From Trueperaceae bacterium (GTDB taxonomy: Bacteria; Deinococcota; Deinococci; Deinococcales; Trueperaceae): a DNA stretch of 64,000 nucleotides. Position numbers and translations under genes: made by a program. Below are positions 19,286 to 27,639 of this stretch, in pieces (positions within the stretch are counted from its first letter, which is position 1; each line of letters opens with the position of its first letter). Below the pieces are notes generated by a model, which searched no databases, was not told where the DNA came from, and was given only the letters and a program-made list of their open reading frames with translations. Where the stretch lies: the NCBI GenBank assembly GCA_023954415.1, contig JAMLIB010000011.1, positions 62,001 through 126,000 on the forward strand, read 5' to 3'.

Positions 19286-20669
<1,384 letters not shown>

Positions 20670-20702
20670 CGATTAGTTCACTCACATGAGGGTCGGATGT
20701 GC

Positions 20703-20708
20703 TATAGT
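20703..20708 (+). promoter_or_regulatory. -10 element of the riboswitch transcript
   Basis: TATAGT, the best hexamer upstream of the first riboswitch. Predicted start is near 20715, followed at once by an AGGAAGT-cgagc-ACTTCCT hairpin (20716-20734). No convincing -35 is visible. Confidence 0.5.
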
Positions 20709-20734
20709 CGCCCACAGGAAGTCGAGCACTTCCT

Positions 20735-20809
20735 GCTTGGACGCTGAGAAGCCTGGCTCGTAATTTGGGCGCTTGAGTCAGGTGGAGCGAGTAGCGCAAC
20801 CGGCCAGGT
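20735..20809 (+). ncRNA. c-di-GMP-II riboswitch, copy 1
   Basis: Matches the class II cyclic di-GMP aptamer consensus. P1 is formed by GCTTGG (20735-20740) and CCAGGT (20804-20809). The central stem is CCTGGCTC with GAGTCAGG. The conserved TTGGGCGCTTGA loop pairs with GTAGCGCAACCGGCC to make the pseudoknot (GCGCT/AGCGC), as GCAC/GUGC does in the Clostridium acetobutylicum reference. In that class, c-di-GMP binds the pseudoknot core. The class is known from Clostridia and Deinococcus. Confidence 0.9.
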
Positions 20810-20898
20810 GAGTGTCCCCTCATCGAAAAGTGCCGTCAACGTCCGAGCGCGGGCACGTGTGCCCGCCGCCCGAACCGTTCGGGCACCGAGCCTCACGG

Positions 20899-20976
20899 CT
20901 TGGACTTGGAAGCGATGAAGCCTGTTCTGCATCTGGGCGCTTGGAACAGGTGGAGCTAGTAGCGCAACCGGCCAAG
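20899..20976 (+). ncRNA. c-di-GMP-II riboswitch, copy 2
   Basis: Same aptamer, 164 nt downstream of copy 1. P1 is CTTGG/CCAAG and the central stem is CCTGTTC/GAACAGG. Compared with copy 1 these stems have changed in a compensatory way while the loop and pseudoknot sequences (CTGGGCGCTTG, AGTAGCGCAACCGGCCA) are identical. That is covariation, evidence that both copies are under selection as RNA. It lies about 85 nt before the first GH26-like lipoprotein gene. Confidence 0.9.
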
Positions 20977-21038
20977 GGACGTTCTCGGTTCAGTCGCATC
21001 CGTTGCGGCTAGCCGGCAGCCGGGCGAGCGCCTCGCGA

Positions 21039-21054
21039 GGACGCCGAAGCGTCC
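21039..21054 (+). promoter_or_regulatory. Hairpin of the riboswitch expression platform
   Basis: GGACGC-CGAA-GCGTCC, a perfect 6-bp stem with a CGAA loop, ends 6-9 nt before the start codon (21064 ATG, or TTG 21061). No T-run follows, so control of translation initiation is more likely than termination. Confidence 0.5.
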
Positions 21055-21063
21055 GGGGACTTG

Positions 21064-22056
21064 ATGATCCGGCCGAGCACTGCGCGAGTCGACAACCAGA
21101 GGCGCTTCACACCGCGTGTGATGATGGTGCTCGTCCCGCTCCTCGCGACGCTCGTGTTGAGCGCGTGCGGGAGCGCGCAGGAGGGAACCGTCTCGGCCAC
21201 CCGCCCGGCAGCAGCTCTGGAGTCGACCGCCCTGTTCGGCGCGTTCACCTTCGGCGGCGTGTGGCGCGGCATGGACCCCATCTACGAGCTCGAGCTCGAC
21301 CTCGGTCGCCGCCTGGACGTCGTGCACTGGTTCACGAACTGGGACAACCCCTACTTCCCCGAGTTGGTCGCCATGGCTTCCCAAGGCGGACGCAGGCCGA
21401 TGATCAGCTGGCAGAGCTACGACCGCAGCGTCGAAGACATCGCGGCCGGCAAGTACGACGCCTACATCACCGAGTGGGCGCGCGGCGCAGCCACCGCGCC
21501 CGGTCTCCTCTACGTGCGCCCCTTCCCCGAGATGAACGGCGACTGGACCCAGTGGAGCGGCGACCCCGAGGGGCTCAAGCGCGCCTGGCGCCGCATCGTC
21601 GGCATCTTCGACTCCGTGGGGGCGACCAACGTACGCTGGGTGTTCAGCCCCAACGTCACGGACTCGCCGCGCGTGCCGGAGAACGCCATGGAGCTCTACT
21701 ACCCGGGCGACGACTATGTCGACGTCCTCGCCCTGGACGGCTACAACTGGGGCGACGTCCTGCCTTCCGTCGGCTGGCGCTCGTTCGAGGCCATCTTCCG
21801 CGCCGGCTACGACCGCGTGACGAGCTTGGGAGCACAGCCCGTCTGGATCGCAGAGCTCGCGAGCTCGAACGTCGGCGGCGACAAGAGCGACTGGGTCCGC
21901 GAGATGTTCGCCACCACGGGGTTCGAACGCATCGAGGCGCTCGTCTGGTTCAACGAGAACAAAGAGGCCGACTGGCGCATCGATTCCGACGTCGCGACCC
22001 TGCACGCGTTCAGGCAGATGCTCAGCGCCGGCACCGCGGTCGCTGCGGTCCGCTGA
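21064..22056 (+). CDS. GH26-like glycosidase lipoprotein, paralog A
   Basis: 330 residues from ATG 21064 (TTG 21061 is adjacent). Lipoprotein signal: basic n-region, VMMVLVPLLATLVLSAC with the lipobox LSAC (Cys35). The catalytic domain fits glycoside hydrolase family 26 (beta-mannanase/beta-glucanase type): acid/base Glu156 in VRPFPEMNGDW and nucleophile Glu264 in PVWIAELASS, plus the substrate-cleft DGYNWGD and an ALVWFNENKEADW C-terminal block. Family members cut mannan or mixed beta-glucans; the substrate here is unknown. It is the first gene after two c-di-GMP-II riboswitches. The next gene is a clear paralog. Confidence 0.85.
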   Translation: MIRPSTARVDNQRRFTPRVMMVLVPLLATLVLSACGSAQEGTVSATRPAAALESTALFGAFTFGGVWRGMDPIYELELDLGRRLDVVHWFTNWDNPYFPELVAMASQGGRRPMISWQSYDRSVEDIAAGKYDAYITEWARGAATAPGLLYVRPFPEMNGDWTQWSGDPEGLKRAWRRIVGIFDSVGATNVRWVFSPNVTDSPRVPENAMELYYPGDDYVDVLALDGYNWGDVLPSVGWRSFEAIFRAGYDRVTSLGAQPVWIAELASSNVGGDKSDWVREMFATTGFERIEALVWFNENKEADWRIDSDVATLHAFRQMLSAGTAVAAVR

Positions 22057-22140: not shown

Positions 22141-23388
22141 GTGGTATCCATATGGCATATATCACAGCGCCGGCCGCAGGCCGGGCGCGCGGGAACTTCC
22201 TTGACCGACAGCCGCTCAACTCGACCAGTTCGCGCCTGTTCAGATGGACGGCGATCCGCGCGTCGGAGGCGGGCCGGGCTCGTAGGTCTGGCGGCGCTGA
22301 TCGTCGCTATCGCGTCGGCACTGAGCGCGTGTTCCGAGCCGGAGACGGCCGCGCTGCCGGGGAGGACCGCCCCTCCCATGCTGGGAGCCTTCGTCCCGGC
22401 CGGTGTATGGAACGATCTCGCTCCCCTTCGGGAGCTGGAGGACCGGGTCGGCGGCGCTTTCGGGCTCGCCCACTGGTACACGTCCTGGGATTTCGCGTAC
22501 GACCCCGTTCCCGTCGATGACGTCCTGGCCGCCGGCCGGATACCACTGGTCACCTGGCAGACCCACAACGAGGCCTTTGACGACATCGTGGCCGGAGCGT
22601 ACGACGCTTACATCCGGGAGTGGGCGCACGGCGTGCGCGCGGCCGCCGGCACCGTGTACGTGCGCATCTTCCCTGAGATGAACGGCGAGTGGACCCCCTG
22701 GAACGGCGACCCCGAAGGGCTCAAGCGCGCCTGGCGGCATATCGTCGAGCTCTTCGCCGCCGAGGACGCGACCAACGTCCGTTGGGTCTTCAGCCCCAAC
22801 GTCACCGACGAACCGCGCACGCCGGAGAACGCCATGGAGCGCTACTACCCCGGCGACGACTACGTCGACGTGCTTGGCCTCGACGGCTACAACTGGGGCG
22901 AGACCAAGCCCCTGATCGGCTGGCGCAGCTACGAGGACGTGTTCAAGGACGGCTACGCCCGGATCACGCGCCTCGGCGGCCAGCCCCTCTGGCTGGCCGA
23001 GGTGGCCTCGGCCGAAGGCGAGAAGGCAGGCGACAAGGCCGCTTGGGTGGACGACATGTTGAACTCCACCGCATTCCCGCGCGTCGAGGCCATCGTGTGG
23101 TTCAACGAGGACAAGGAGGCGGACTGGCGCATCGAGAGCTCGCTCCTCTCCCTTCAGGCCTTCCGTTCCTACTTCCGGAGCCGGCAGGGCGCCGAATCGC
23201 CACAGGCTGCGCGCGCTCCCGCTGCGCCCGCGCGAGCGCAGCCCATAGCGGTCCGCACCGGCACGGACGTCGCGGTCGCTGCGCCCGCCGGTGGCACCCG
23301 CCCTTCGAGTAGCGCCGGAGCGGGTGGGCGTCCCGCCTCCTCCACCACCGTGTTCGCGGGCGGCGAGCACCACGCGCTCGGCCGATAG
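22141..23388 (+). CDS. GH26-like glycosidase lipoprotein, paralog B
   Basis: Up to 415 residues from GTG 22141; the true start may be later (TTG 22201) because about 45 residues precede the signal segment. Lipobox LSAC at Cys64 after GLVGLAALIVAIASA. GH26-type catalytic residues Glu179 (RIFPEMNGEW) and Glu287 (PLWLAEVAS). Shares long stretches with paralog A, including ENAME-YYPGDDYVDVL and DGYNWG, so a tandem duplication is evident. Unlike A it has a C-terminal Ala/Pro/Gly/Ser-rich tail of about 70 residues, possibly a wall-spanning linker. The 84-nt gap after A has no clear terminator, so both probably share the riboswitch transcript. Confidence 0.82.
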   Translation: MVSIWHISQRRPQAGRAGTSLTDSRSTRPVRACSDGRRSARRRRAGLVGLAALIVAIASALSACSEPETAALPGRTAPPMLGAFVPAGVWNDLAPLRELEDRVGGAFGLAHWYTSWDFAYDPVPVDDVLAAGRIPLVTWQTHNEAFDDIVAGAYDAYIREWAHGVRAAAGTVYVRIFPEMNGEWTPWNGDPEGLKRAWRHIVELFAAEDATNVRWVFSPNVTDEPRTPENAMERYYPGDDYVDVLGLDGYNWGETKPLIGWRSYEDVFKDGYARITRLGGQPLWLAEVASAEGEKAGDKAAWVDDMLNSTAFPRVEAIVWFNEDKEADWRIESSLLSLQAFRSYFRSRQGAESPQAARAPAAPARAQPIAVRTGTDVAVAAPAGGTRPSSSAGAGGRPASSTTVFAGGEHHALGR

Positions 23389-23406: not shown

Positions 23407-24756
23407 ATGCCTAGCCTCCGGTCGCCCTTCCGCCTCCTCGCTTTCCCCGCCAACGTTGGCGGCAAGCCGACTCCCACCTTCGACCCGCAGCCTAGTCGTG
23501 GCGCGCGCCTAAACGTGGCGTGCGGCGTGCGGCGCGTCGCTCACGGCCTGTTGCTCGCCCTCGCCGCATGCTGGCTGGCGTACGCCTCGGCGCCGGCGGC
23601 GGCAGAGCCGCCGCACCCTCGCAGCGCTACCGCCTACGGCCTCGAGACGCTCACCAAGCTCCTCCCGTTGCCGGTGGACGCCGTGCCGCTCGACGACACG
23701 GGCGACCTGCTGATCGTCGCTCTCGACGGCGCCGTGTGGCGCTACACGGACGGCGCCGTGGCCGGGACGCCGTTCCTGTCGCTCGGCGGGCGCGTCACGG
23801 GCCTGCTCGGCGAACAGGGCCTCTTCACGGCGGCGCTGGAGCCGGCCGAACGCGCGGCGGCGCGCGGCAACGCGCGGCACATCGTCGTGGCGTTCACCGA
23901 AGCCGGCACCAACGATCTGGTGGTGGCCGCCTACCCGCTGGCGGAGGACGCGAGCAGTGCCGACGCCGCGCAGGAGACGGTGCTGCTGCGCGTACCGGTG
24001 CGTGAGCCCTTCCACCACGGTGGGCAGGTCGCCTTCGGCGTCGACGACATGCTGTACGTGTCAGTCGGCGAGGGCCAACGCGAGGTGGAGTACTTCCACG
24101 AGACGCCCATACCGGCCCAAGACCTCACGTCGCTGCTCGGCAAGGTCTTGCGCATCGACCCGTTTCCAGCGGACGGCGACACGCCCTATACCGTGCCGCA
24201 GGACAACCCGTTCGTCGGCGGACAAGGGGCGACGCAGGGCGCGCTCGGCGAGGTCTACGCCTTCGGGTTCCGCAACCCGTGGAAGTTCAGCTTCGCGGCG
24301 AGCGACGGCGCGCTGCTGTTAGCGGACGTCGGCGAGGACACCTGGGAGGAGATCGACGTCGTGCGCCCGGGGGGCAACTACGGCTGGCCGTACATGGAGG
24401 GCCCCCACTGCTTCGAGTACCCGGACACCGGCGGGTTGGTGGCTCCCGACTGCGAGCGTCTCCCGCTCGTCCCGCCGGCCGCGTACTACGGTCACCTCCG
24501 GATAGACCCGGTCGGCGGCCTGTCCGTGACCGGCGGCTTCGAGGCCCACGATCCGGCGCTGCCCGAGCTCGTCGGCAAGTACTTGTTCGGGGACTTCGTC
24601 TCCGGTCGCCTCTGGTCGCTCGACCGGGCGACCGGTGCCGTCGAGCTCCTCCTCGAGACCGGGCTGCCGATCTCGGCCATCGTGCCGGGCGCCGCAGGCG
24701 AGGTGCTCGTGCTGGGGATAGAAGGGACGCTGGCGCGGCTCGTCGAGGCCCGCTAG
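23407..24756 (+). CDS. PQQ-type soluble sugar dehydrogenase (GdhB-like), exported
   Basis: Up to 449 residues from ATG 23407, which follows a TACCAT hexamer by 9 nt. A later GTG (23515) directly before the signal peptide (VACGVRRVAHGLLLALAACWLAYASAPAAA) is a plausible alternative. The six-bladed propeller of the glucose/sorbosone dehydrogenase family is recognised by FHHGGQVAFGVDDMLYVSVGEG (with the catalytic His block), a GEVYAFGFRNPWKFSF motif, DVGEDTWEEID, and GGNYGWPYMEGPHC. Members oxidise aldose sugars or sugar residues with PQQ. It follows the GH26 pair by 18 nt and converges on the synthase gene. Confidence 0.8.
   Translation: MPSLRSPFRLLAFPANVGGKPTPTFDPQPSRGARLNVACGVRRVAHGLLLALAACWLAYASAPAAAEPPHPRSATAYGLETLTKLLPLPVDAVPLDDTGDLLIVALDGAVWRYTDGAVAGTPFLSLGGRVTGLLGEQGLFTAALEPAERAAARGNARHIVVAFTEAGTNDLVVAAYPLAEDASSADAAQETVLLRVPVREPFHHGGQVAFGVDDMLYVSVGEGQREVEYFHETPIPAQDLTSLLGKVLRIDPFPADGDTPYTVPQDNPFVGGQGATQGALGEVYAFGFRNPWKFSFAASDGALLLADVGEDTWEEIDVVRPGGNYGWPYMEGPHCFEYPDTGGLVAPDCERLPLVPPAAYYGHLRIDPVGGLSVTGGFEAHDPALPELVGKYLFGDFVSGRLWSLDRATGAVELLLETGLPISAIVPGAAGEVLVLGIEGTLARLVEAR
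23447..23462. repeat. 16-bp perfect palindrome at the 5' end of the sugar dehydrogenase gene
   Basis: CCGCCAACGTTGGCGG lies 40 nt after ATG 23407 and 53 nt before the alternative start GTG 23515. If the later start is the real one, the palindrome is in the promoter/leader region and may be an operator. Confidence 0.6.
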
Positions 24757-24855: not shown

Positions 24856-27639
24856 TCAGCCCTGGTTGGGGTTGCCGACGGAGGGCACGCCGTCCGCGCT
24901 GCCGTACAAGCGGCGGCGGATGTCGTCGTACAGGGCCTTGTCGTCGATGCCGAAGCTCTGCACGAGTTCGGCGGTCACGAAGTAAGCCTGGGCCACCGTC
25001 AACCTTCCGTCGGCCACGAGGTTCGTCACGCCGAGGAGGGCGCGCTCCTTGTCCGTGACCGAGTCGGGGTCCGCCCGGTAGGCGGCCACCGTGGCCTGCA
25101 GCGCGTTGGCCAGGGGTCGCAACTCGTCGATCGCTTTCACGAGGTTGCCGTGGACGGGGCTGACCTTGCCACGCACGACCCCCTCGAGGGGGTTGATGTA
25201 GCGGGCGTACGCGAAGTGGTCGTCCTCGCCGCCGGGTTGCGCCCGGGCCCACGCCAGCTTGGCGGCACCCGCGCAGACCGAGAAGTCGGGATCGAACACG
25301 GAGAAGTCGCCCGCGAAGAACCGCTGGTTGGCGTATGGCGAGAGCTGGTCCGTCGAGATCGCGCGCAGCAGCGTCAGAGCGTCGCTCGTGACCTGCGAGA
25401 GGCCGAGGTCGCCGGTCGGCCCGACGGCCAGCGGGTCGAGGTAGGACTCGTTGATGAGGATGCGCAGCAGGAGGTCGGGCGGCACGTCGTACGCGGTCGA
25501 GGCCTCCTCGATGTTGGCCACGAGCGGCGCCAAGCGCGCCAGGACGAGCAGACCCCACGCGGAGAGCGGTTGGTAGCCCTCCGCCACCTCGAGCCGGTGG
25601 CGCTTCGTGGCCGGCCGCAGCACGTCGGCGACGGAGCAGTAGGCCGACACGCGGCCGTGCCCCTCGTTGGACGCCATGACGTGGAGACCGAGCCGGGCGA
25701 GCGGCGAGTCGACGAGGTCGGTGGGAACGCCGGGGTCGTCGGCCCGCGCGCCGCGGTCGTCGCCCTGCGCCTCGGCGACGCGCGCGTCGTCGCCGAACTC
25801 GGTCGGCGCGTCCACCGGACCCGCGGCGTCCGCCCCTGGCGCCAGGCCCTCCGAGGCTCCACCGGCGCCCGGATCGGCAGCCTGCGCGGGGCGCGAGAAC
25901 CCGGCGTCGACGAAGGCGTCGAGCAGCCCACGGTCGGTCAAGGACAGCGGCAACGTCATGTGGTCGTCCTGCGACACCCTGACTGAGTCGTTGATGAGGC
26001 GCCAGGCATCGCGGTAGCCGGGTCGGGTGGCCGAGGCGAGGACCGCAGCGCCGGCGAAGACCGTGGCGACGGACAGCACCATGCCGGTGGTGGCGCCAAG
26101 GTAGCGGAGCTGCGAGCGCTTCGACGTGCGCGACCGCGGCCTGTCCCACGTGATCGTGGCCCGCGGATCGAACTCGTTGCGCCGCATGAAGCGCGGTACG
26201 GCCCTGGCGGCCCCCGTCAGGAACGTGACGGCATTGAACGGGCGCAGGAGCGCGAGGGGCACGACGGACGTCGCCGCCTCGCGGCCGACCTTGGACCAGA
26301 GCCTGAAGCGGCGCAGCCCTTGCGCGCGCCAGATGCGGGCGAAGCCCCACGTGGCGAGGACGAGCGTGGCCGCCAGGTCGAAACCCGCCCATAGCCCGAG
26401 GGCCTTCAGCGGCGTGCCGTGGCCGGGCAGGGCGTAGTTCAGTCCGGCAGCAACGGGCAGCATGAGCAGCAGCAGCGCCAGCCCGAACAGGTTCTCGAAG
26501 TGTGCGGCCAGGACCGTGAAGCGCACGTTGGCCCGCAGGTCGCGCCACTGGGCGCGCCGGAACAGCCGCTTGAGACCGTTCTCGATGCCGCCGCCGTTCC
26601 ACCGCTCGATCTGCCGCAAGTACCCTGGCAGGCTGGGCGGGTCGTCCGTGTACATGAGGGCGGACGTGATGAACCGGGCGTTGCTGCCGTGGCGTATGAC
26701 GAGCGGGGCGTCGCCAACGAGCCTGCCGAGCTCGACCTCCTCGCCGTCGACGACGACGCGGAACCCCTTGGCATCGAGCTCGGGGGCGCCGACGTGCTCG
26801 TCGGTCACCGCGCGGTTCTGCACGCTGAGCGTGAAGTCGTGGTCCTCGGTCAACGTGTCGGCCGGCATCGGGAAGCACTCGCGCCTCGCCACGAACCCGC
26901 ACCCGACCACCGTGTAGAGCCGCGAGCGGCCGAACACGGCCCCCTCGCCCAACCGCGCCGTCTGACCCGTGCGCAGCACCGCCGCGATGGCGTACTCGGC
27001 CGAGCGGGCACGCGAGATGAACCTGGCCACCGGCTTGCCGCGCCCGGGGTCGGCGGACATCACCGCGCCTGATTGGATCGCGTAGTCCTCGAGGACGTAG
27101 CGGAGCTTGCGACCATGACCCACGCGCCGCAGACGGTAGAAGTCGTCGCGCAGGCGCGCCAGGAAGTGTTCCTCGAGGACCGTGTCGCCGTCGACGATGA
27201 GCACCCGCTCGGCGCTCAGCAGGCCGCCGCTCAGCACGACGTTGATGCTGTCCGACTTGGAGATCGGCTGGGCGTGCTCGACGACGATGACGCTCGGTCC
27301 GCCGCCGCCGGCCTTCAGCCACCGCTCGAAGGTCGCGGTGGCGTCGGCGACCGGGCCTCTGGTCACGCACCGGTACCCGGCCTCCCCCAACGTCAGCTTC
27401 ACGACCTCCGCCGTGGCGTCCGTGCCGCCGTTGATGCTCACGGCCAGCGCGTCGAACGGCACGCTCTGCGCGAGTAGCGACGTCAGGGCGGCGGCGGCGC
27501 CCGCCTCCTCGTTGAACATCGGCGACACCACGCCTACGCGGTCCGGCGACCTCACCGGGAGCGAGGCGTCCTTGGCCAGGCTGAACATGGCGTTGGCGAT
27601 GACGGTCGGCGTCGCTAGCAGCCCGGGTATGAACGGCAA
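24856..27639 (-). CDS. Membrane glycosyltransferase 2 fused to a lytic-transglycosylase-like domain
   Basis: 927 residues from TTG 27639 (GGAAGG 11 nt upstream). N-terminal GT2 domain with the processive-synthase motif set: VVSPMFNEE (about 37-45), VDGD (149-152), TEDHD (264-268) and QIERW (343-347). Then come membrane segments near 381-402, 411-434, 457-476 and 515-537. A Gly/Ala/Asp-rich linker (about 580-640) leads to a domain at about 705-800 with the SLT motif INESYLDPLAVG and DLGLSQV (catalytic Glu731 by analogy). By topology this domain lies outside the membrane. The synthase half resembles PgaC/hyaluronan-type polymer synthases that export a beta-linked glycan; the SLT half suggests cutting or passing through peptidoglycan. 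I know of no common protein with this architecture. Convergent with the sugar dehydrogenase gene (99-nt gap). Confidence 0.85.
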   Translation of the reverse strand: MPFIPGLLATPTVIANAMFSLAKDASLPVRSPDRVGVVSPMFNEEAGAAAALTSLLAQSVPFDALAVSINGGTDATAEVVKLTLGEAGYRCVTRGPVADATATFERWLKAGGGGPSVIVVEHAQPISKSDSINVVLSGGLLSAERVLIVDGDTVLEEHFLARLRDDFYRLRRVGHGRKLRYVLEDYAIQSGAVMSADPGRGKPVARFISRARSAEYAIAAVLRTGQTARLGEGAVFGRSRLYTVVGCGFVARRECFPMPADTLTEDHDFTLSVQNRAVTDEHVGAPELDAKGFRVVVDGEEVELGRLVGDAPLVIRHGSNARFITSALMYTDDPPSLPGYLRQIERWNGGGIENGLKRLFRRAQWRDLRANVRFTVLAAHFENLFGLALLLLMLPVAAGLNYALPGHGTPLKALGLWAGFDLAATLVLATWGFARIWRAQGLRRFRLWSKVGREAATSVVPLALLRPFNAVTFLTGAARAVPRFMRRNEFDPRATITWDRPRSRTSKRSQLRYLGATTGMVLSVATVFAGAAVLASATRPGYRDAWRLINDSVRVSQDDHMTLPLSLTDRGLLDAFVDAGFSRPAQAADPGAGGASEGLAPGADAAGPVDAPTEFGDDARVAEAQGDDRGARADDPGVPTDLVDSPLARLGLHVMASNEGHGRVSAYCSVADVLRPATKRHRLEVAEGYQPLSAWGLLVLARLAPLVANIEEASTAYDVPPDLLLRILINESYLDPLAVGPTGDLGLSQVTSDALTLLRAISTDQLSPYANQRFFAGDFSVFDPDFSVCAGAAKLAWARAQPGGEDDHFAYARYINPLEGVVRGKVSPVHGNLVKAIDELRPLANALQATVAAYRADPDSVTDKERALLGVTNLVADGRLTVAQAYFVTAELVQSFGIDDKALYDDIRRRLYGSADGVPSVGNPNQG

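Follow-up and report, generated by a model that had tools for sequence, protein, structure and literature searches.

The leader between tgt and an operon encoding two GH26 lipoproteins and a GSDH-like protein, in a 64-kb window (the whole stretch of DNA analyzed) from a Trueperaceae bacterium of the Deinococcota, carries two similar aptamers in tandem, and the question is whether they act as two switches or as one. The first-pass annotation of this DNA expected the tandem to give a 'sharper or more digital' response, an expectation that presumes that two switches work independently in series and that each has a platform of its own. The features of the locus are collected in Table 1.

Searching the whole window with Rfam cmscan returned exactly two matches to RF01786 (c-di-GMP-II), both full length and both well above the gathering score of 53.5 bits, as the annotation had proposed. 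A search of the whole genome found no further copy, so that this genome has only two c-di-GMP-II aptamers; its congeners have 3 to 7. The core and pseudoknot strands (GGGCGCUU / AGUAGCGCAACCG) are present in both copies and nearly invariant in an alignment of 49 sequences. The annotation was right in assigning the class II core to both, but the loop of the second copy reads CUGGGCGCUUG, not UUGGGCGCUUG. Of the two helices it described as compensatory, CCUGGCUC/GAGUCAGG against CCUGUUC/GAACAGG truly is, but this is an inner P2-type stem and not P1. The other, CUUGG/CCAGG against CUUGG/CCAAG, is P1 itself and has changed on one side only (U-A to U.G), and the claim is dropped. Neither copy forms the outer P1 pairs of the Rfam model, where cmscan shows mismatches; local hairpins are found instead. 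Membership of both copies in the c-di-GMP-II riboswitch class is supported, with c-di-GMP as the predicted ligand. The genome encodes nine GGDEF and four EAL proteins, which suggest that the host is able to make and break c-di-GMP.

The genes downstream are also as annotated. Both GH26 lipoproteins match PF02156 (43.6 and 45.9 bits against a Pfam cut-off of 20.2), and the first has the lipobox LSAC. Residues E156 and E264 (numbering of GH26 lipoprotein 1), which presumably have catalytic roles, are invariant in 12/12 compared GH26 sequences. Matches above 40% identity occur solely in Trueperaceae MAGs. The best solved-structure match of the family is the Lic26A lichenase, 'endoglucanase H' (PDB 2bv9 and others, E 2e-64), from which the GH26 here differs in that it is a lipoprotein and has a GSDH partner.

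Members of the genus retain the order tgt, tandem, GH26-GH26-GSDH, GT2-SLT. The last of these (24856-27639, minus strand) encodes a fusion of glycosyltransferase-2 and an SLT lytic-transglycosylase domain; it adjoins the GH26 operon across genera and is a possible synthase of the glycan cut by GH26. Between tgt and the riboswitch promoter lies a perfect 38-nt palindrome, CCTCTCTGGCTGACCGGTCGACCGGTCAGCCAGAGAGG (20632-20669), which is imperfect in close relatives and is therefore perhaps a hairpin or an operator.

Table 1. Features of the tandem riboswitch leader and its neighboring genes (window coordinates)
Feature	Position	Strand	Remarks
tgt	19286-20605	-	Upstream neighbor of the tandem leader
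Promoter -10 TATAGT with extended TG	20703-20708	+	Consensus scan: 1 found vs 0.0 expected
Hairpin P0-1 (AGGAAG/CUUCCU)	20716-20734	+	Directly 5' of aptamer 1; top-scoring covarying helix in blind helix scan
c-di-GMP-II aptamer 1	20730-20814	+	cmscan 70.5 bits, E 8e-14; true P1 CUUGG 20736-20740 / CCAGG 20804-20808
Hairpin H1 (UGAG-UGUCCC-CUCA)	20809-20822	+	Immediately 3' of aptamer 1; kept in tandem GH26 leaders; loop is 5' strand of long-range helix
Long-range helix, 5' strand GUGUCCC	20812-20818	+	Covariation in 10 lineages; best bin of blind scan
Linker hairpin CGGGCACGUGUGCCCG	20850-20865	+	Sequence palindrome; variable in relatives
Linker hairpin GCCCGAACCGUUCGGGC (also written GCCCGAACCGTTCGGGC)	20868-20884	+	Near letter-for-letter conservation in most tandem GH26 leaders
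Hairpin P0-2 (CCGAGCC/GGCUUGG)	20886-20903	+	Immediately 5' of aptamer 2; relatives have an equivalent hairpin of other sequence
c-di-GMP-II aptamer 2	20900-20982	+	cmscan 73.7 bits, E 1e-14; true P1 CUUGG 20905-20909 / CCAAG 20972-20976
Aptamer-2 core GGGCGCUUG	20935-20943	+	Pseudoknot strand in ligand-bound state; proposed partner of switch strand when unbound (pairing search)
Long-range helix, 3' strand GGGACGU	20976-20982	+	Directly 3' of aptamer-2 P1; covariation; absent in L051, L102, L104
Hairpin GUCGCA/UGCGGC	20993-21009	+	After the long-range strand; kept with changed letters in relatives
Switch (anti-core) strand CGAGCGCCU	21025-21033	+	Complementary to aptamer-2 core; proposed to compete for SD region
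Hairpin GGACGC-CGAA-GCGUCC and Shine-Dalgarno (SD) GGGGA (21055-21059)	21039-21059	+	Compensatory changes among genus relatives; folding
GH26 lipoprotein 1	21064-22056	+	ATG start 21064; PF02156, E 3e-11
GH26 lipoprotein 2	22141-23388	+	Operon gene 2; PF02156, E 6e-12
Glucose/sorbosone dehydrogenase-like (GSDH) secreted protein	23407-24756	+	Probable last operon gene; PF07995, E 8e-30; gene order conserved

The extended -10 element of the leader places the probable transcription start at about 20714-20716, just 5' of the first structured element, and the sequence TTCAC...TGCTA of the promoter region is conserved in genus relatives. The second linker hairpin is more conserved than a spacer hairpin requires. 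We asked whether it (GCCCGAAC-N-GUUCGGGC) might be an operator that recurs in the genome and rejected the idea, as it occurs there only once.

RF01786 was found in 34 of the 39 genomes of the family search, with up to 21 copies per genome, and a family-specific model gave 120 copies in 81 loci. All congeners retain the tandem GH26 leader, and in other genera GH26 lies downstream of every tandem of the window type. We compared architectures over ten lineages with a tandem and three GH26 leaders with a single aptamer (L051, L102 and L104).

This comparison revealed a putative helix between the two aptamers. The loop of H1, 3' of aptamer 1, is complementary to the tail 3' of aptamer 2, and the pairing GUCCC/GGGAC of the window becomes CUCCC/GGGAG in L032, AGUCCC/GGGACU in L036, UCGUCCCC/GGGGACGA in L053 and L056, and CGUCCCA/UGGGACG in L057 and L060. 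Weaker versions have one mismatch (L062) or are short and U/A-rich with four pairs (L065). Across the ten tandem lineages 65/80 cells are paired (81%), with changes in both strands at five of eight pairs, values of pairing and covariation matched by 0-2 of 500 shuffles; slid registers all fail the same test. The register for this count was chosen by eye, sequence by sequence, and a whole-leader MAFFT helix scan found P0, P1 and P2 first and left the tail misaligned. We therefore scanned all linker by 3'-flank bins without a register. The long-range helix is the best bin, with a mean of 16.9 against at most 15.6 in block-shuffled sets, a result that is independent of the choice of register and is based on only 60 shuffles.

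The complementarity has a Fisher value of 4e-5 in tandem GH26 leaders and of 0.22 in control tandems, although such combined p-values are indicative, since the lineages share ancestry and independence is overstated. No signal for the helix was found in the other tandem types used as controls (L037-L067, L098, L052-L066), and the GGGAC tail is missing from the three single-aptamer GH26 leaders; both are expected if the helix serves to join two aptamers. The tail was also considered as an extension of P1 and this was rejected, as the cmscan alignment shows no complementarity between the outer P1 strands, which leaves the tail free for the long-range helix. The covariation suggests that a conserved RNA helix ties the two aptamers together, and at the level of sequence such a loop-tail helix, covarying over ten lineages, amounts to a structural contact between aptamer units of the kind known from glycine riboswitches.

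These changes also bear on whether aptamer 1 is functional. It could be a decaying duplicate, with the shared complementarity a by-product of common descent, and a single aptamer does precede GH26 in several relatives (L180 and L181 in addition to the three compared here). We regard this as very improbable, given that aptamer 1 scores 70.5 bits, is nearly as well conserved across lineages as aptamer 2 (86% and 88% identity), and takes part in a helix with compensatory changes.

Published tandems of this class have been read differently. Tandem c-di-GMP-II riboswitches are known as 59 doublets and 9 triplets, mostly in Paraclostridium, and are grouped under multiple expression platforms (Sherlock et al. 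2022, PMC9481103). The same survey classes the aptamers of Bc3-5, a triple-tandem c-di-GMP-I riboswitch of Bacillus thuringiensis (PMC4759541), as separate, independent units, each having a platform of its own. By this precedent, which is also the model behind the annotation's digital response, the leader would hold two c-di-GMP-II riboswitches in series, and their combined action would be steeper and pseudo-cooperative. The terminator scan found no intrinsic terminator-like site in 20500-21150, and no start signal was seen between the aptamers when the linker was read by eye. A platform for each aptamer was thus not found; the one trace of a switch of aptamer 1's own in the leader is a weak anti-core signal that may also follow aptamer 1 (Fisher 0.008). 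A covarying inter-aptamer helix is likewise not expected of independent units, and we consider this explanation unlikely.

The second aptamer is followed by a stronger candidate. An anti-core strand precedes the SD in the GH26 leaders, tandem and single, with a Fisher value of 5e-7 over 13 lineages against shuffled flanks; nothing comparable was found in 41 single leaders of other genes (Fisher 0.93). With the aptamer out of play, folding predicts that this strand pairs with the SD-AUG region in 12/14 leaders. Its pairing with the core shows no covariation within the GH26 leader group because the core is almost invariant. The lack of a terminator or start signal between the aptamers, the joining helix, and the lone switch strand before the SD together point to a dual-aptamer, single-platform device, in which the aptamers probably share one translational platform instead of forming two independent switches.

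We lean, with little better than even confidence, toward a dual-aptamer c-di-GMP-II riboswitch with a single translational platform, with the glycosidases produced at low c-di-GMP and held back at high c-di-GMP. Without c-di-GMP, the aptamer-2 core would be held by CGAGCGCCU, leaving the ribosome site free. With c-di-GMP, the core would enter the ligand-bound pseudoknot, and the released switch strand would cover the ribosome site. Aptamer 1 would act through the long-range helix, docked to the base of P1 of aptamer 2.

The sign of this regulation is harder to read. In a translational OFF switch the ligand usually takes the core and the freed strand closes the ribosome site, an arrangement that fits the predicted pairing with the SD-AUG region. 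Two-state constrained folding gave no clear separation of SD accessibility in the window and several relatives; SD-only accessibility favors OFF in seven lineages (L032, L035, L036, L057, L058, L059 and L062). Because these results are mixed, and uninformative in the window, we consider it only moderately probable that c-di-GMP switches the GH26 operon OFF. The same dual-aptamer device could instead be an ON switch, in which bound ligand, together with the long-range helix, holds the leader open and glycosidase expression rises with c-di-GMP, for matrix remodeling during biofilm growth. SD/AUG accessibility in the window is indeed not lower in the 'bound' than in the 'apo' state (0.58 vs 0.40), and the linker loop UCCCC might pair with the SD GGGGA, which the long-range helix would prevent. 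However, SDs are always complementary to C-runs and we do not count this pairing as evidence, while the pairing of the released switch strand in most leaders and the SD-only accessibilities speak against an ON switch, which we think improbable. Transcriptional control of the GH26 operon, for example Rho-dependent, may also occur.

Glycine riboswitches have two like aptamers, one expression platform, and contact between the aptamers. The leader described here has these traits in common, the contact being indicated by sequence; it differs in its aptamer and ligand, and in that the contact is a loop-tail helix across a linker of about 90 nt. If the helix docks aptamer 1 onto aptamer 2, then by analogy with glycine riboswitches each should influence the binding of the other. 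Under the OFF reading, the docked aptamers would form one cooperative unit that controls a single translational switch. Such a device would have evolved independently of the glycine riboswitch, as its counterpart, and would be conserved through a Deinococcota family, repressing extracellular glycan hydrolases at high c-di-GMP. This fuller proposal is tentative, and we rate its chances at slightly less than even.

Natural dual aptamers with one platform are listed only for glycine and guanidine-II (Table 1 of PMC9481103), and if our reading is correct an example responding to a second messenger joins this very short list. Like the tandems of that survey, the leader has two RF01786 aptamers upstream of a gene for a secreted surface protein; it differs in the indicated single translational platform and covarying inter-aptamer helix, and in its occurrence in Trueperaceae. 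With Bc3-5 it shares the use of several aptamers for one signal in one leader, although those aptamers are of class I. Contiguous c-di-GMP riboswitches are enriched in Deinococcota according to passages of a 2025 study (PMC12452182), which concern the same phylum and the same kind of element; these passages give enrichment at the phylum level and do not mention Trueperaceae, GH26, a linking helix, or platform analysis. We found no literature on riboswitches in Trueperaceae or Truepera.

Both the tandem arrangement of c-di-GMP-II riboswitches and the presence of c-di-GMP tandems in Deinococcota are therefore already published, and what would be new is the joined, single-platform build. The usual explanation of tandem c-di-GMP riboswitches is that they are independent switches in series, and the covarying helix offers physical coupling as a concrete alternative. 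The proposal would also provide a first account of how matrix-type enzymes are regulated in Trueperaceae, namely GH26 here and GH114 and beta-helix lipoproteins in relatives.

Other tandems in the family and the order are built differently and lie upstream of genes for other secreted proteins. A second and more widespread type occurs in Trueperaceae (L037-L040, L061, L063, L064 and L098) and in other Deinococcales families (L177 and L179). In this type a strand 3' of the second aptamer is complementary to the 3' pseudoknot strand of that aptamer and has the SD/AUG hairpin as its alternative partner. The strand covaries between families (GAUGCAACC/GGUUGCAUC vs GUGGCGCAA/UUGCGCCAC), and the arrangement is a clear candidate for a translational OFF platform. 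Arrangements of three aptamers are found in L061, L064, L080, L082 and L083, where two c-di-GMP-II copies form a close pair and a third follows about 650-840 nt downstream, ahead of genes for small secreted proteins. In Trueperaceae, the c-di-GMP-II regulon (L037-L046, L067, L072 and L098) is rich in carbohydrate-active proteins that are secreted or are lipoproteins. Its members, several of them named by eye, include GH114 (L044, and a similar protein in L041), Pel9A-like beta-helix proteins, a subtilisin-like protease, and pilin-like small proteins.
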